A stretch of 64,000 bases of DNA from Roseibium sediminis (GTDB taxonomy: Bacteria; Pseudomonadota; Alphaproteobacteria; Rhizobiales; Stappiaceae): the NCBI RefSeq assembly GCF_008711325.1, contig NZ_VXDB01000009.1, positions 1-64,000 on the forward strand, read 5' to 3'. The notes below the pieces were generated by a model. It saw nothing but the letters and a program-made list of their open reading frames with translations. It was not told the DNA's origin and did not search any database. Below are positions 33,998 to 63,277 of the stretch, piece by piece. The position numbers were made by a program, and so were the translations under genes. The first letter of the stretch is position 1; every line of letters starts with the position of its first letter.

Positions 33998-35251
33998 TTA
34001 ATGTGCCACTGCAGCTGCGGCAGCCTCGTCGATGAGGCGACCAGTGCGGAACCGCTCCAACGAGAAGGGAGCAGCGATCGGATGTGGCTCATCCTTGGCG
34101 ATTGTATGTGCGAAGACATGGGCAGAGCCCGGCGTGGCCTTGAAGCCGCCGGTTCCCCAGCCGCAGTTCACGAAGAGGCCCGGAACCGGTGTCTTTGCAA
34201 TGATGGGCGAGCGATCCGGTGTGACGTCGACGATGCCGCCCCAGTTGCGCAGCATGCGCATGCGGCGGAACATCGGGAACAGTTCGCAGATCGCATCGAT
34301 CGTGTGGGTGGTGATGTGGATGCCGCCAGTCTGCGAATAGGAGACGAACTGGTCGGTTCCCGCGCCGATCACCAGCTCTCCCTTGTCGGACTGGGAGATA
34401 TAGGCGTGGATCGTGTTGGACATGACCACACAGGGGAAGGCGGGTTTCACCGGTTCGGAGACGAGAGCCTGCAGCGGGTTTGACTCCAGCGGCATTCGAA
34501 TTCCGGCCATTTCCATCAGCACGGATGTGTGGCCTGCAGCAACAACGCCGACCTTTTTTGCCTTGATGAAGCCCTTGGCTGTTTCGACACCTTCAACAGA
34601 TCCATCCGCTGCCCGGCGAATGCCGGTCACGGCGCAGTTCTGGATGATGTCGACGCCCAGATCATCGGCAGCACGGGCATAGCCCCAGGCCACCGCATCG
34701 TGACGGGCTGTACCGCCGACCCGCTGCAGGGCTGCGCCAACGACTGGGTAGCGGATGTCCTTGGAAATGTTCAGCGGCGGGCAGTATTCCTTGGCTTCTT
34801 CCGGGGTCAGCCACTCGTTCTGGACACCGGCGAGGCGGTTGGCATGCACATGCCGCTTGAACACCTGAATGTCATGCACTGTGTGTGCGAGCATCATCAC
34901 GCCGCGCGCCGAGTACATCACGTTGTAGTTCAGCTCGTCAGACAGGCCATCCCAAAGCTTGACTGCGTGGTTGTAGAGCGCCGCGCTTTCTTCCCAAAGA
35001 TAGTTCGAGCGGATGATGGTCGTGTTTCGACCGGTGTTGCCACCGCCCAGCCAGCCTTTTTCGATAACGGCAATGTTTTTGATGCCGTGTTCCTTGGCCA
35101 GATAATAGGCTGTGCCCAGACCATGTCCGCCCGCGCCAACGATGACCACATCATACTCGGCCTTCGGCTCGGGCGCGCGCCATTGACGACCCCAGTTCTG
35201 GTGCGCCGAAAAGGCGTTTTTGGCCAGTTCCAGAAAAGAATATCGCTTCAT
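33998..35251 (-). CDS. soxB: heterotetrameric sarcosine oxidase beta subunit
   Basis: The FAD/FMN-carrying beta subunit (417 residues). It has the dinucleotide-binding [22 protein letters not shown], the [22 protein letters not shown] segment (in two parts), the flavin-linkage region [16 protein letters not shown], and C-terminal [16 protein letters not shown]. First gene of soxBDAG. Its upstream region is shared with the divergent mtoX operon. The role is growth on sarcosine or glycine-betaine-derived methyl groups. Confidence 0.96.
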
Positions 35252-35755: not shown

Positions 35756-37063
35756 ATGGGTTTCAGGAAGTTGGCGTCGGTTTTTGCAGGTGCTACCATG
35801 CTCATGTCGCCGGGCTTGTCCTTGGCCGATGAAACCTGTCAGTCCCCCTATATGCCGAAGATCACGGGCGAAGAGGAGTTCGTCTACGTCTGGACGCTCG
35901 GCAAGGAAGGAATTGGCGACGAATCCGACAAGCTGGTAACCGTGGATGTTCGCAAGGGATCAGATACCTACGGCAAGGTGGTGGCCAGTCTTTCGGTGGG
36001 CGGGCGAAACGAGGCTCATCATGCCGGCTTTTCCGCCGACCGTCGCTTTCTTTGGGCCGGTGGCCTCGATACCAACAAGATCTTTGTTTTCGACGTGCAT
36101 TCCGATCCTGGCAAACCCATTTTGACCAAGACGATCGACACCTTCGTCAAGGATACCGGCGGGGCCGTTGGCCCGCACACTTTCTACGGCCTTCCGGGGC
36201 GCATGATGATTTCGGCCCTGTCGAATGACAAGGATCACGGCGGGCGCACGGCTCTGGTGGAGTATTCCGATGAAGGTGAGTTTATTGCCACTCACTGGAT
36301 GCCGACCGCAGAAGATCCACGCGGCGCCAAGATCGCCAGCGATGTTGTCGACGGCTACGGTTATGACGTGCGCGCCCTGATCCGCAAGAACGTGATGCTG
36401 AGTTCCTCTTTCACCGGCTGGTCCAACTACATGATGGATTTTGGCCAGATGCTGGAAGACGGCGAGGCAATGAAGCGCTTCGGCCAGACCGTTGTCCAAT
36501 GGGACCTGCATTCGCGTCAGCCGAAGAAGGTGATGCATGTGCCCGGTGCGCCGCTGGAGATCCGCTTCGCATGGGGCCCGGAAAACAATTACGCGTTCAC
36601 GACTGCGGCCCTGACTTCCAAGTTGTGGCTGATCCACGCGGATGACAACAATGAATGGCATGCCAAGGAAGTTGCCGATATCGGCGACCCAGCGTCCATC
36701 CCGCTGCCCGTGGACATCTCCATCTCTGCGGATGATTCCCGCCTTTGGATCAACACCTTCATGGATGGAAAGACCCGCCTTTTCGACATTTCCGATCCCT
36801 ATGCGCCCAAGCAGATCTACGAGAAGGTGATTGGTGATCAGGTGAACATGGTATCCCAGAGTTGGGATGGAAAACGGGTCTATTTCACCAGCTCGCTGCT
36901 CGCCCAATGGGACAAGAAAGGCGATGCGGACGACCAGTATCTGAAAGCCTATGACTGGGACGGGAAAGACCTGAAGCTGCAGTTCGAGCTCGACTTTTAC
37001 AAGGAAGGTCTTGGCCGCGCACATATCATGCGCTTCGGCTCCAGCAAGCTTTTCGGCAGCTGA
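35756..37063 (+). CDS. mtoX: methanethiol oxidase (SBP56/selenium-binding protein family)
   Basis: Expected to oxidise methanethiol to formaldehyde, hydrogen sulfide and H2O2 in the periplasm. The 435-residue protein has a signal peptide ending near residue 24 (LSLA-DE). The mature SBP56 beta-propeller core is recognisable by SVGGRNEAHHAGFSADRR, GLDTNKIFVFDV, PHTFYGLPGRMMISALSN, YGYDVRALIRKNVMLSSS and the His-rich ends of blades. GGAGGA lies before the ATG at 35756. It is followed by a SCO1-like and a MauG-like gene, the arrangement described for the copper-containing enzyme of Hyphomicrobium. The name rests on family plus this context; plain SBP56 proteins of other function exist. Confidence 0.85.
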   Translation: MGFRKLASVFAGATMLMSPGLSLADETCQSPYMPKITGEEEFVYVWTLGKEGIGDESDKLVTVDVRKGSDTYGKVVASLSVGGRNEAHHAGFSADRRFLWAGGLDTNKIFVFDVHSDPGKPILTKTIDTFVKDTGGAVGPHTFYGLPGRMMISALSNDKDHGGRTALVEYSDEGEFIATHWMPTAEDPRGAKIASDVVDGYGYDVRALIRKNVMLSSSFTGWSNYMMDFGQMLEDGEAMKRFGQTVVQWDLHSRQPKKVMHVPGAPLEIRFAWGPENNYAFTTAALTSKLWLIHADDNNEWHAKEVADIGDPASIPLPVDISISADDSRLWINTFMDGKTRLFDISDPYAPKQIYEKVIGDQVNMVSQSWDGKRVYFTSSLLAQWDKKGDADDQYLKAYDWDGKDLKLQFELDFYKEGLGRAHIMRFGSSKLFGS

Positions 37064-37126
37064 TGTCTGAAGAAGTGCAGGTGGTTGATGCCGCCTGCAC
37101 ATCTTCCGGTCAGCGAGGTGATACCG

Positions 37127-37912
37127 ATGGAGCTCGGGTCTTTCATGCGAGCGATGTTTCTCTTCAAACCACGCAGTGAAACCGCGACAGGCCTGCTGAC
37201 GGCGTGTTTTGCCTGCCTCGTTGCTGCTGCCGTCGTGGTCGCGGCTGTGCCGCCCATAGCCGCGACGGTTGAAGACAGAGCGCTTGGGGGAGAGGTCGTT
37301 GATTTGGCAAGCCTTTTCCCCCGTACTGCCGATTATGACTTTGCAGTTCCGCTAGCTGGCACCTATCAGTTGCCTGCATTAAAGGCAGCGCCGGGCGGCC
37401 AGCTTCTCGATATGAACGGTGAAGCTCTGGATCTTGCCAAGGTGCTTGATGGTCGTATCTCGCTTGTGAGCTTCGTCTATCTTCTGTGTGCGGATACCAA
37501 CGGTTGCCCGCTGGCCTTGGCGACCCTGTTTGATGTCTTTGACGGTAGCGAAGCAGCGCCGTTTCTGAAACAGCATCTTCAGCTTGTCACGATCAGTTTT
37601 GATCCCGAGCGCGATACGCCGGAAGCGCTTGGCAGCTTTGCCTATCCCGTGCTGGCCGACCCCAAAGCGGGCAGAAAAGTTGACTGGCATTTCTATACGT
37701 CATCCGGCGCCAAGGTACTGCAGCCGGTTCTGGACGGGTTCGGTCAGGCGGTGATCCACACAGCAGACAGTGAGACGATCAATCACCTTTTGCGCATGTT
37801 CCTTGTGGACCGGCAGGGTCGGATCCGGAATGTTTACGGTCTTGGGATGATCGATCCGCGCCTCTTGATGAGTGACGTTGAAACCCTGCTGATGGAAGAG
37901 GCCGGGCAGTGA
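37127..37912 (+). CDS. SCO1/SenC-like copper chaperone of the mtoX operon
   Basis: A thioredoxin-fold SCO protein that would deliver copper to MtoX. The 261-residue protein has one N-terminal membrane helix (about 22-44), then a SCO domain: FVYLLCADTNGCPLA, the ISFDPERDTPEAL stretch, and TINHLLRMFLVDRQG with the metal His (H220). The Cys pair C121 and C127 is separated by five residues instead of the usual three (CxxxCP). The start was set at ATG 37127, with GCGAGGTG upstream; an ATG at 37085 is an alternative. Its end overlaps the MauG-like gene by 4 bases. Confidence 0.82.
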   Translation: MELGSFMRAMFLFKPRSETATGLLTACFACLVAAAVVVAAVPPIAATVEDRALGGEVVDLASLFPRTADYDFAVPLAGTYQLPALKAAPGGQLLDMNGEALDLAKVLDGRISLVSFVYLLCADTNGCPLALATLFDVFDGSEAAPFLKQHLQLVTISFDPERDTPEALGSFAYPVLADPKAGRKVDWHFYTSSGAKVLQPVLDGFGQAVIHTADSETINHLLRMFLVDRQGRIRNVYGLGMIDPRLLMSDVETLLMEEAGQ

Positions 37913-39087
37913 GCATTTCGCGGCTCATCTCTCTGGCTTTGCCGTTCTTCCTGTGTCTGTGTTTTGCCGTTCCGACAGTTCGGGCAGATAATTGGGCGGT
38001 TCGGGTGCTTGAAAGATCAATGACCGGCTCCCTCGGTTTGCCGGTTCCGACACATCCGGTTGAAAACCGCCCGACCGCGGACAAAATCCGCCTCGGGCGC
38101 AAGATTTTCTTTGATCGCAGGTTGTCGCTGAACAGAACCATGTCCTGTGGCATGTGCCATATTCCCGAGCAGGGCTTTGGCAATCATGAACTGCAGAAAG
38201 CCGTTGGTTTTGAAGGGCGAAGTCTTCGGCGCAATGCGCCAACGCTGGTCAATGCCGCGTTCTATGAGACCCTCTTTTGGGACGGGCGGGAAACCGGGTT
38301 TGAGACCCAGTTCATCTCTCCGTTGCTGGCTGCGAACGAGATGGCAAATCCGTCTGCAGGGCAAGTGGTGGCCCTGATCGAAGAGCTTTCCGACTATGAC
38401 GGGGCCTTTGAACAGGCGTTTGGACAGCCAGTCTCCCTGCATCGGATCGGGGAGGTGTTGGCCGCCTACCAGCGGTCATTGATTGCTGCAAACAGCCCAT
38501 TCGACCGCTGGCGGTTCGGAGGTGATACGAATGCGATTTCCGAACAGCAGCAACGTGGATATCAGCTGTTCACCGGCAAGGCAGGCTGCAGCCAGTGTCA
38601 CCAGATCGGAGAAACCAGTGCGCTTTTCACTGACAATGCCTATCACGACACGGGCTATGGCTGGATGCGCGAACACGAGCGCCAAAACCCTCCCTCCCAT
38701 CATCCGGTAGAGGTTGCGCCGGGGGTGGTCTTTCATGTTTCCAGAAAACAGATTGATGATGTGTCCGGTCCCTCTTTGCCGGATCTCGGGCGATACGAGG
38801 TGACACAGAACCCGGCAGACAGCTGGAAATACCGCACGCCCATCCTCAGAAATGTGGCGTTGACCGCTCCCTACATGCACGATGGTGGATTTGCCAAGTT
38901 GCGGGATGTCCTGGATTTCTACAATCGCGGCGGCGCGTCCCATGACCAGCAAAGCCCGTTGATCCGACCACTCGGTTTGACCGAGGCCGAGCTGCAGGAT
39001 CTGGAGGCTTTTCTTCAGGCGCTGACCTCTGCGGACTTTGCCGAACTGGCAAGGGAAGCACGGGTCGAAGAGCCGGACAACTGGTAA
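37909..39087 (+). CDS. MauG-like di-haem cytochrome c peroxidase family protein
   Basis: A periplasmic 392-residue protein with a signal peptide (cleaved around ADN) and two c-haem motifs, CGMCH at residues 80-84 and CSQCH at 227-231. DRRLSLNRTMSC, NAPTLVNAAFYETLFWDGR and RTPILRNVALTAPYMHDGGF are typical of the MauG/CcpA family. In the mtoX context it may modify or activate the oxidase, as MauG does for methylamine dehydrogenase, or remove H2O2. GTG start overlapping the previous stop (GTGA). Confidence 0.88.
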   Translation: MSISRLISLALPFFLCLCFAVPTVRADNWAVRVLERSMTGSLGLPVPTHPVENRPTADKIRLGRKIFFDRRLSLNRTMSCGMCHIPEQGFGNHELQKAVGFEGRSLRRNAPTLVNAAFYETLFWDGRETGFETQFISPLLAANEMANPSAGQVVALIEELSDYDGAFEQAFGQPVSLHRIGEVLAAYQRSLIAANSPFDRWRFGGDTNAISEQQQRGYQLFTGKAGCSQCHQIGETSALFTDNAYHDTGYGWMREHERQNPPSHHPVEVAPGVVFHVSRKQIDDVSGPSLPDLGRYEVTQNPADSWKYRTPILRNVALTAPYMHDGGFAKLRDVLDFYNRGGASHDQQSPLIRPLGLTEAELQDLEAFLQALTSADFAELAREARVEEPDNW

Positions 39088-39124: not shown

Positions 39125-39232
39125 TCTGGGTGGTTAGCTGCCTTCCATTGTGAAAACTACCCTGACGCATTTCTGGCGCCGATAGCATCCCGCCGGATCG
39201 AATAATTTATAGAATACAGATAGATGAACTGT

Positions 39233-39249
39233 TTGGCCCGCTTCCTGCT
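39233..39249 (+). promoter_or_regulatory. sigma-54 (-24/-12) promoter of hupSLEC
   Basis: TTGGCCCGCTTCCTGCT matches the consensus YTGGCACGRNNNTTGCW at all key positions, with GG and GC ten bases apart. Transcription would start near 39260, about 50 bases before hupS. Confidence 0.75.
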
Positions 39250-39310: not shown

Positions 39311-40387
39311 ATGACTGAAACCTTTTATGAGGTGATGCGCCGCCAAGGCATCACGCGGCGAAGCTTCTTGAAGTTTTGCTCGCTGACCGCAGCAGCGCTC
39401 GGATTGGGGCCCAGCTTTGCCCCGAAGATTGCCGAGGCGATGGAGACCAAACCGCGCATACCGGTTCTCTGGTTGCATGGTCTTGAATGTACCTGCTGCT
39501 CGGAAAGCTTCATTCGATCCGCCCATCCGCTGGCAAAGGATGTGGTGCTGTCGATGATCTCGCTCGACTATGACGATACGATCATGGCGGCTGCCGGGCA
39601 TCAGGCCGAGGCCATCATCGAGGAAACCATCGCCAAATATGATGGCAACTACATCCTCGCCGTGGAAGGCAATCCGCCGCTCAATCAGGACGGCATGTCG
39701 TGTATCATCGCCGGGCGTCCGTTCCTTGAGCAGTTGAAGCATGCAGCGGATCACTGCAAGGCGATCATTTCGTGGGGCTCTTGTGCCTCATGGGGCTGTG
39801 TTCAGGCCGCGCGTCCGAACCCGACACAGGCGACACCGGTTCACAAGGTGCCGGGTCTTGCCGCCAAGCCGATCATCAAGGTGCCCGGGTGCCCGCCGAT
39901 TGCGGAAGTCATGACGGCGGTCATCACCTACATCCTGACCTTCGAGAAGTTTCCGGAGCTGGACCGACAGGGTCGTCCGAAGATGTTCTATTCGCAGCGC
40001 ATTCACGACAAGTGCTATCGGCGCCCGCATTTCGATGCAGGTCAATTCGTCGAGAAGTTCGACGATGAAGGCGCGAAGAAGGGGTACTGCCTCTACAAGG
40101 TCGGCTGCAAGGGGCCAACCACCTACAACGCCTGTTCTACGGTGCGCTGGAATGGCGGGTTGTCATTCCCGATCCAGGCTGGCCACCCGTGCATCGGGTG
40201 TTCGGAAGACGGGTTCTGGGACAAGGGCAGCTTCTATGACCGCCTGACCGACATCAAGGGGTTCGGCATCGAGGCCAATGCCGACGAGATCGGTGGAACC
40301 GCAGCGGTCGTTGTTGGAGCAGCAGCTGCCGCCCATGCCGCAGCAAGTGCCGTCAAACGCGCCCGTGACAAGGGAGGAAACAGCTAA
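39311..40387 (+). CDS. hupS: uptake [NiFe] hydrogenase small subunit
   Basis: The electron-transfer subunit carrying three FeS clusters; exported with HupL through Tat. The 358-residue precursor starts with a Tat signal (TRRSFLKFC, processed near AEA). The Cys ligands follow in [34 protein letters not shown] and [23 protein letters not shown] hydrophobic C-terminus (about 328-350) anchors it to the membrane next to cytochrome b. Start ATG 39311 has GGAGGAG upstream. It overlaps hupL by one base (TAATG). Confidence 0.98.
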
Positions 40388-61205: not shown

Positions 61206-62174
61206 CTATCCGCCCTGGATTTTTCCCTTACCGTTCAGGAGCAGGCTCAGATCTTCGATGTGAAGGAATTCCTCGGCTTTTGACCGGATACAGGAGAGGA
61301 TCGTCGCCATCGCTCCTGACAGGGTCTGGTCGGATCGATGCAAGACATACCATTGCCGGATGATGGGAAGATGTTCGGCGCGAATGGCGGCGAGACGTCC
61401 CGATTTCAGCTCCTCGATGATTGTGTGATAGGAGATGAGGGCAATGCCAAGCCCGGCGATGACCGCCTGCTTGATGGTTTCGTTGGAGTTCATTTCCGAG
61501 TATTCGAAGGGGATGCCTTCGCCGGACTGATCGAGGAAACGCATGGTGAGGATACGCGTGCCCGAGCCGCGTTCCCGCAACAGGAAATGCTCCCTAAAAA
61601 TCTCATCTGCGGCCACGTCCGCCCCCGTGACCAGCCGGTGATCGGGGGGAGCAATCAAAAGGTGCGGGTGATCTCCAATGGGATAGGCCGTGACAACAGG
61701 CTGACGCGGGGGACGACCCATGATGGCAAGATCAATCCGACCGGTCTCTAGCGCGGCTATGATCGCGTCCCGGTTTCCAACTTCCAGAACCACTTCGATA
61801 TCCGGAAATAGCGCCTTCATGCGCGCAACAATGCCGGGCGCGAAATATTTTCCCGTCGATACCACGCCGAGAATGACCGTGCCGGAGAGGCCGCGTTTCA
61901 GGGATTCGATCTGGTGAACTGCCTTTTCGAGAGAGGCGAAAGCAGCTTCATAGCCGCTTAAAAGGGCACTCCCTTCCGGAGTCAAATTGAAAAGGCCGTT
62001 CCGCCCGCGCTCCAGAAGTGAGCAGCCTAGGCAATCTTCCAGCGTTCGGATTTGATTGTGAACGGCCGGTGAGGTCAACCCAAGGTCTTCTGCCGCACCG
62101 CTGATTGTGCCTGCATTATATATAGATTTCAAAGCCTTGAGCTGCTTCAGTGTGACTGCATCAAGTTGCCGCAT
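61206..62174 (-). CDS. cbbR: LysR-type regulator CbbR
   Basis: A 322-residue LysR activator of Calvin-cycle genes. N-terminal HTH (TISGAAEDLGLTSPAVHNQIRTLED) and an effector domain with LGVVSTGKYFAPGIVARMKALFPDIEV. The name rests on this CbbR-like sequence and on divergence from cbbF. Confidence 0.92.
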   Translation of the reverse strand: MRQLDAVTLKQLKALKSIYNAGTISGAAEDLGLTSPAVHNQIRTLEDCLGCSLLERGRNGLFNLTPEGSALLSGYEAAFASLEKAVHQIESLKRGLSGTVILGVVSTGKYFAPGIVARMKALFPDIEVVLEVGNRDAIIAALETGRIDLAIMGRPPRQPVVTAYPIGDHPHLLIAPPDHRLVTGADVAADEIFREHFLLRERGSGTRILTMRFLDQSGEGIPFEYSEMNSNETIKQAVIAGLGIALISYHTIIEELKSGRLAAIRAEHLPIIRQWYVLHRSDQTLSGAMATILSCIRSKAEEFLHIEDLSLLLNGKGKIQGG

Positions 62175-62218
62175 TAGATTTTTCCTAATTCGACTTTCAG
62201 ATTATTAAATTTTCTTAA
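62174..62218. promoter_or_regulatory. candidate CbbR-binding LysR boxes
   Basis: Two T-N11-A palindromic boxes occur in the divergent promoter: TTAGATTTTTCCTAA at 62174-62188, overlapping the cbbR start codon, and TTAAATTTTCTTAA at 62205-62218. Their spacing resembles the recognition and activation sites of LysR regulators, allowing autorepression of cbbR. Confidence 0.5.
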
Positions 62219-62269
62219 CGTCAGAAATGCGGATGATCAAGTCCAACACGTTAGGGGCGGGAGGCCTTG

Positions 62270-63277
62270 ATGGACTTCGATCGGAAAATACTTGATCTCA
62301 CGGAACTGCCGGAAGGCCTGCATGAGCTTCTATTGGCCCTTTGCACCGTAGGTCGGGATCTGTCGCTGACCATCGCGCAGGGTTCTCTGGCTGCCGAGCT
62401 CGGCGCGACCATCGGCGGCACCAGCCATGGCGATGAGCAGAAAGCTCTGGATGTGATGGCTGACGAAGCCTTTGCAGACATGCTGAAGAGTGCCGGAGTG
62501 CGCTGGTACGCCTCTGAAGAGCGCGAGGATGTGCAGGAGCTGGATCCAACCGGCCCATATGCGCTGGCCATCGATCCGCTGGACGGGTCGTCAAACATTG
62601 ATGTGAATGTGTCCATCGGGACCATCTTCTCCGTCTTTCCGGCAAAAGAGGACGGGGAGGCGTCGTTCCTGAGACCTGCACGGGAGCAGATTGCTGCAGG
62701 CTATCTGATCTACGGTCCGCAGACGGCCTTGATGTTGACGGTCGGGGCGGGCGTTCGGCTCTACATTCTCGACCCGAAGTCGCGCACCTTCAAGCTGGCC
62801 AACGGCAATGTTCGCATCCCGGAGCACTCGACAGAGTTTGCGATCAACGCGTCGAATTACCGTCACTGGTCCAAGCCGATCCGCGCGTATATCGACGATT
62901 GTCTGGCAGGGTCGGAAGGGCCCCGCGAGAAGAATTTCAACATGCGCTGGGTCGCATCCCTTGTCGCAGAAACCCACCGGATCATGAGCCGCGGCGGTCT
63001 GTTCCTGTACCCTTCCGATGATCGTGAGGGGTATCGACGGGGTCGTCTTCGGATGATCTACGAATGTGCGCCGATTGCCTTACTGGTCGAACAGGCTGGC
63101 GGCAAGGCGACGACCGGAACAGCGGCAATCCTGAGCCAGCAGGCGGACACGCTGCATGCACGTACACCCTTCGTTTTCGGGTCGACCGAGAAGGTGGAAC
63201 GGGTCGCGGCCTATCACGATTTGCCTGAGAAGGAAGTCTCGGCGCTGTTTGGAACCCGCGGCCTGTTCCGCGCCTGA
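62270..63277 (+). CDS. cbbF: class I fructose-1,6-bisphosphatase of the Calvin cycle
   Basis: A 335-residue class I bisphosphatase, with [21 protein letters not shown] as the metal and substrate signature and [20 protein letters not shown] further on. In proteobacterial cbb operons it also dephosphorylates sedoheptulose bisphosphate. ATG 62270 is chosen, with GGGAGG upstream. Divergent from cbbR and followed by cbbP after 61 bases. Confidence 0.95.

Follow-up and report, generated by a model that had tools for sequence, protein, structure and literature searches.

A predicted methanethiol oxidase operon of Roseibium sediminis, and covariation of the adjacent mauG-like gene with Trp222 of MtoX and the SCO cysteine motif

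The first 64,000 nucleotides of contig NZ_VXDB01000009.1 of Roseibium sediminis (assembly GCF_008711325.1; the whole stretch is referred to as the window) contain three complete, tightly packed reading frames on the plus strand: mtoX, for a predicted SBP56-type methanethiol oxidase, a SCO1/senC-like gene and a mauG-like gene. Very probably they make up a complete operon for methanethiol oxidase, with horizontal transfer as its probable origin; its predicted exported copper enzyme, MtoX, would be matured by the SCO protein and, at Trp222, by the di-haem enzyme. The mtoX gene (35756–37063) starts with an ATG after GGAGG. MtoX scores 749.1 bits with the NCBIfam equivalog NF052453 (cut-off 650) and 160 bits with SBP56 (PF05694, cut-off 34), and the 4.99 Mb genome holds no second SBP56 match with E ≤ 0.001. 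The first start codon of the SCO gene is at 37085; the ATG at 37127 has the better ribosome site, which places the gene at 37127–37912 and leaves a gap of about 63 bases after mtoX (SCO1-SenC, PF02630, 47.5 bits, cut-off 22.8). The mauG-like gene (37909–39087) has a GTG start that overlaps the SCO stop by 4 bases and encodes a MauG/MbnH-like protein with two CXXCH motifs (CCP_MauG, PF03150, 164 bits, cut-off 25.6). Relatives of SCO and mauG, as separate or fused genes, lie downstream of mtoX in 89 of 106 different MtoX sequences (rows), the window's own included, which excludes a chance origin of the three-gene set. The sequence-only reading had described a complete mtoX-SCO1-mauG operon between 35756 and 39087, ordered as in the Hyphomicrobium methanethiol oxidase locus, and both parts hold: the frames are whole, lie on one strand and pass the family models, and the set and order are those of Hyphomicrobium sp. 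VS (mtoX-SCO1/senC-mauG), which also shares the copper histidines (PMC5739008, compared by description). The operon type is already published and the locus is a further member. Scanning for promoters in a simple way yielded 3 sites where 2.0 were expected, and none of the 3 lies before mtoX.

The single cysteine of MtoX, Cys28, lies within an exact TCQSPYM motif, which is reported for MtoX of the Ruegeria pomeroyi type (PMC10936201). H88, H89, H141 and H423 correspond to the R. pomeroyi copper histidines His88, His89, His141 and His424. Of the 106 rows, 104 keep C28 (the other 2 are gaps), all keep H88 and H89, 105 keep H141 and 104 keep H423 (again with 2 gaps). In a tree of 111 rows, built with position 222 excluded and with eukaryotic proteins left out, MtoX of the window belongs to a 24-row set with a support of 98, in which it is joined by the enzymes of R. 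pomeroyi DSS-3 and of other alphaproteobacteria, and six remote SBP56 rows (one archaeal, five bacterial) sit far from it on a long branch. Phylogenetic placement had been set beforehand as the test of the enzyme's identity; the grouping with the R. pomeroyi enzyme, which has been tested by way of a mutant (PMC5739008, PMC10936201), and the equivalog score above its cut-off argue for a methanethiol oxidase. An AlphaFold model of MtoX (mean predicted local distance difference test score 89.4) matched Sulfolobus SBP56 (2ECE) best, with a template modelling score of 0.75; nitrous oxide reductase and thiocyanate dehydrogenase, both of them copper enzymes, are among the lower-ranked matches. The N-terminus is hydrophobic, as judged by eye, and residues 1–22 have low confidence in the model; MtoX, a β-propeller protein, would be exported to the periplasm. 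As a side observation on the collection, one mtoX of 61% (L113) comes from a bin titled Klebsiella pneumoniae; it groups with rows titled Deltaproteobacteria and Binatia, and the bin is probably misnamed.

Using O2, the matured enzyme would cleave methanethiol to give formaldehyde and a sulfur species. The products had been given beforehand as formaldehyde, H2S and H2O2. The methanethiol oxidase identity stands; H2S and H2O2 are doubtful, as for the R. pomeroyi enzyme, which carries the same TCQSPYM motif, the direct sulfur product measured was sulfane sulfur and not H2S, without H2O2, and the parts of the paper cited report no H2O2 for the Rhodobacteraceae enzymes (PMC10936201). In the strain of the window, the sulfur product would be sulfane sulfur or H2S.

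The SCO motif, CADTNGC (CX5C), is two residues longer than the CPDVC (CX3C) of the solved SCO protein 4wbj; as it departs from the canonical CX3C copper motif, the protein is classed as SCO-like. It would help to load copper at the four conserved MtoX histidines. The best solved relative of the di-haem protein is MbnH (6e1c, 154 bits); bacterial cytochrome c peroxidases come next (119–139 bits) and MauG after them (90 bits). It reaches neither the cut-off for MauG of the tryptophan tryptophylquinone (TTQ) type (TIGR03791, 199.4 bits, cut-off 443.85) nor that for MbnH (TIGR04039, 236.8 bits, cut-off 362.85). A search for true TTQ MauG in 115 genomes of the class gave no match, and the positive control was likewise without a match. 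For residue comparisons, MauG reference sequences were taken from plasmid records, together with one MbnH-type reference. Tyr338 of the di-haem protein aligns to Y314 of the Paracoccus denitrificans MauG precursor, which we take to be the mature Tyr294, assuming a signal of 20 residues; the position is Tyr in all 88 partner proteins aligned. Like the MauG of P. denitrificans, the partner proteins also have equivalents of Pro107 and Glu113; unlike it, they lack an equivalent of Trp199, the residue for hole transfer to the substrate (Ala in the protein of the window; 86 of 88 have Ala or Gly, and the second reference MauG, DM1, likewise has Ala). At the place of MauG Trp93 the protein of the window has Trp, the sole one among the 88, and 69 of the 88 have His.

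The 106 rows were scored for the residue at position 222 of MtoX, the cysteine spacing of the SCO protein and the presence of a mauG relative on the same strand within 5 kb downstream. Trp222 and CX5C are each present in all 89 rows in which mauG is adjacent. Eight rows combine a residue other than Trp at 222 (Q, F, F, L, K, K, F, L) with CX3C and no adjacent mauG, so that Trp222 is lost in 8 of the nine CX3C rows without adjacent mauG; a Microvirga-type enzyme is among those with Phe. For five further rows (four with W222 and CX5C, one with W222 and no SCO) the contig ends too soon. Neither the nine CX3C stretches nor that of the metagenome bin L102 holds a mauG relative on either strand (tblastn at 1e-3). 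Whole-genome searches for mauG at 1e-20, which covered four of the nine CX3C cases, gave none in genomes G155 and G117 and that of L106, and one partial match of 40% in the genome of L107, with the positive control (L038) matched; two Skermanella and two other Microvirga cases are plasmid records only, and the genome of L187 was left out. Of 126 columns with a conservation of 97% or more among 87 mauG-linked rows, the nine CX3C rows preserve 108 in full. Positions 222 and 227 are tied as the columns most often lost: W222 remains in one of the nine rows, and position 227, lost equally often, changes to a single alternative. At position 222 five residue types occur, more than in any other column. 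Positions 67, 105 and 228 are also loosened. The other tryptophan of interest, W385, is Trp in 105 of the 106 rows (the other is a gap), in all 8 readable CX3C rows and in 17 of 18 remote SBP56 rows. Two variant gene arrangements were seen in the collection: on two Skermanella plasmids (L145, L152) mtoX-SCO is followed, in place of mauG, by a gene for a cobalamin-dependent protein on the opposite strand, and in genome G087 (L132) two tandem mtoX genes precede one SCO and one mauG relative.

The covariation makes Trp222 the likely target of the di-haem enzyme, and Trp222 of MtoX would be oxidised by this neighbouring enzyme. Several observations weigh against this reading. Four of the 12 rows without adjacent mauG keep Trp222. 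One is L187 (genome G556; CX3C, no mauG), in which the mtoX frame is broken at about residue 274, and another is L102, which has CX5C and, in its genome at 1e-20, no mauG; the remaining two, L064 and L079, have neither SCO nor mauG adjacent, and a strong mauG relative lies on another, short contig of each genome. All CX3C rows fall within a single supported set of 15 rows that also holds mauG rows and whose inner forks are partly unresolved, and the covariation therefore rests on one or two evolutionary events; it is a case of relaxed constraint within one lineage and not of many parallel losses. A test on independent pairs was not significant (3 pairs, median p 1), and wider MtoX sampling near two genomes without mauG added nothing new (2 and 1 genomes available there). 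Most rows trace back to searches with peptide patterns taken from MtoX of the window (best 80 of 91 loci), and one of these patterns, YMMDFGQM, lies just past Trp222, with any of the six patterns being sufficient for a match. Finally, solved bacterial cytochrome c peroxidases, with up to 139 bits, score above MauG (90 bits) with the di-haem protein. The covariation of mauG, Trp222 and CX5C looks new: it is unmentioned in the parts of PMC5739008, PMC10936201, PMC6548844, PMC3912023, PMC6405878 and PMC9426467 available to us, with the reservation that Table S7 of PMC5739008 may list operons without mauG.

Methanethiol holds a central place in the marine sulfur cycle. For the maturation of its oxidase, a TTQ cofactor was proposed in 2017; the idea of maturation was taken up in PMC10936201 and PMC6548844, in the cited parts of which no test of maturation was found. 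The covariation names one residue and offers a natural comparison group of oxidases without adjacent mauG. As to the chemistry at Trp222, one model, put forward tentatively, sees in the 'MauG' of mtoX operons not a TTQ maker but an MbnH/CorB-like enzyme whose only target would be Trp222, oxidised for example to kynurenine so as to build the copper site. The CX5C SCO protein would be co-adapted to the site so modified, and the Skermanella/Microvirga-type lineage would use a CX3C SCO protein without modification at position 222. Copper binding in the MbnP family is kynurenine-dependent, and the copper proteins of the MbnH and CorA/CorB systems presumably belong to families other than that of MtoX. 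Like the window, the methanobactin operons with MbnH and the CorA/CorB system pair a di-haem protein with a neighbouring copper protein. CorA has kynurenine in place of a tryptophan next to its copper, and CorB, which is co-transcribed with it, is similar to MauG-type proteins (PMC3912023). Oxidation of a single tryptophan therefore has a precedent, with the role of such partners being called unsettled by the authors of that work (PMC3912023).

The other chemical model is the one proposed in 2017 for Hyphomicrobium MtoX, in which the di-haem enzyme crosslinks Trp222 to Trp385 to form TTQ. It has the published proposal with its mass fit (PMC5739008) in its favour; moreover, Trp222 and Trp385 are the equivalents of Trp223 and Trp386 of the R. 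pomeroyi enzyme (RpMTO), the pair supposed to form TTQ (PMC10936201), and equivalents of MauG Tyr294, Pro107 and Glu113 are present. We nevertheless regard this crosslink as rather unlikely. If the cofactor were built from two tryptophans, both partners might be freed upon loss of the di-haem enzyme, and only Trp222 is. Trp385, being kept in the CX3C rows and even in remote SBP56 proteins, need not be a MauG target and could be kept for structural reasons. The partner protein, furthermore, has 199 bits against the TTQ MauG cut-off of 444, lacks the Trp199 equivalent and has His at the Trp93 place in most relatives, the window itself having Trp. The two chemical models become separable by one mass measurement.

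Oxidation of Trp222 also has to be weighed against a protective role of the di-haem protein, which would then be a peroxidase that shields the periplasm from H2O2 made by MtoX, with the SCO protein as thiol-redox partner. Membership of the CCP_MauG family and the scores of the cytochrome c peroxidases relative to MauG fit such a role; H2O2 is classically given as the co-product, and in Methylophaga growth on dimethyl sulfide goes with more catalase (PMC6548844). A peroxidase is nonetheless improbable, with Tyr in all 88 partner proteins in place of the Met ligand of peroxidases (ligand rule from PMC6405878) and with Rhodobacteraceae enzymes for which no H2O2 is reported (PMC10936201). It also gives no reason for the variation of Trp222 where mauG is not adjacent.

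Directly after the mtoX stop, a strong stem-loop without a T run lies between mtoX and the SCO gene (37069–37106, plus strand; z-score of the minimum free energy −4.5). Of the 25 rows in the clade of the window, 18 have a stem of at least 9 pairs, as do 30 of 64 other mauG-linked rows, versus about 1% (1.2%) of mononucleotide shuffles; its position is kept across relatives and its sequence is not. A folding energy test over 120 bases was mixed, with z below −2 in 51 of 104 rows (−3.0 for the window and about 0 for R. pomeroyi DSS-3, L144), and gave a less clear picture than the comparison of stem lengths. The element is possibly a partial terminator or a stability element, and may lower the output of SCO and mauG relative to mtoX. 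The mtoX operon of R. pomeroyi DSS-3 (SPOA0269-0271) is like that of the window in its MtoX (77% identical, single Cys28 in TCQSPYM), in the CX5C SCO gene followed by that for the di-haem protein and in the stem-loop after mtoX. Its surroundings differ: an IclR regulator precedes it and an S-(hydroxymethyl)glutathione dehydrogenase gene follows, whereas in the window sarcosine oxidase and hydrogenase genes are the neighbours.

Upstream of mtoX and divergent from it, a reading frame named by eye as a sarcosine oxidase beta-type subunit (33998–35251, minus strand) is the first of a minus-strand set that runs down to 30117; the gamma subunit SoxG, the sole subunit tested by family, matched PF04268, and the other subunits were named by eye. 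Uptake hydrogenase genes lie downstream; hupS, for the small subunit of a [NiFe] hydrogenase, is on the plus strand at 39311–40387 (TIGR00391, 545 bits; the listed frame starts at 39224, and the ATG at 39311 with its ribosome site is likelier). After the hupSL pair come accessory and hyp genes, genes for a response regulator that has a sigma54-interaction domain and for a histidine kinase, a second pair of hydrogenase genes, and hypF. In the interval from mauG to hupS, a sigma54-type −24/−12 element (39234–39248, plus strand; TGGC-N8-TGC) has the same position and spacing in the window as in all 8 congeners aligned, the ninth (L143) being left out of the alignment; in a scan of the window the bare pattern occurred at chance level, and this site is singled out by its positional conservation only. 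With this conserved element, hup very probably has its own promoter, the mtoX operon ending just before it.

The sequence-only reading took the adjoining genes as a sulfur/C1/H2 oxidation island. The adjacency was borne out; the island was not, and it is very unlikely that mtoX, hydrogenase and sarcosine oxidase form one regulated energy unit. Beyond the adjacency, the idea draws on a gene for the large subunit of RuBisCO at 70040 of the same contig, beyond the window, and on a SoxB above its cut-off on another contig of the genome, so that several inorganic electron donors may be open to the strain. Against the island, the arrangement of sarcosine oxidase, mtoX and hup was looked for in congeners and named relatives and found in this genome only. 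The hydrogenase large subunit is present in 10 of 45 genomes of the genus, its own included; the other nine have no mtoX, SCO, mauG or sarcosine oxidase match above 60 bits in stretches of 16 kb (about 10 kb upstream of hupS), and in the flanks of the best 80 of 91 MtoX loci, which span 8 kb at most and are often shorter, neither hydrogenase nor sarcosine oxidase gave a match. The conserved hup promoter element also speaks against joint regulation. Hydrogenase and sarcosine oxidase are thus neighbours, not parts of the system.

No MtoX match over the cut-off was found in the 36 congeners searched. The nearest relative of MtoX, 83% identical (tblastn), comes from another family of the same order, and mtoX is present in two genomes of another genus of the family, which do not stand beside the window in the tree. 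Horizontal acquisition of the operon is therefore likely, the alternative being loss in the congeners. That the SBP56 protein of the window serves another function is hardly credible: SBP56 is a broad family, and 15 of the 36 congeners hold only remote SBP56 matches below the MtoX cut-off, but the equivalog score and the position in the MtoX clade speak against it. An alphaproteobacterium with hydrogenase, SoxB and RuBisCO genes thus carries a predicted methanethiol oxidation that was lacking in its 36 congeners searched. After the hypF region, a LysR gene is divergent from a class I fructose bisphosphatase gene (61206–63277), and together with the RuBisCO gene these are probably the start of a Calvin-cycle cluster.

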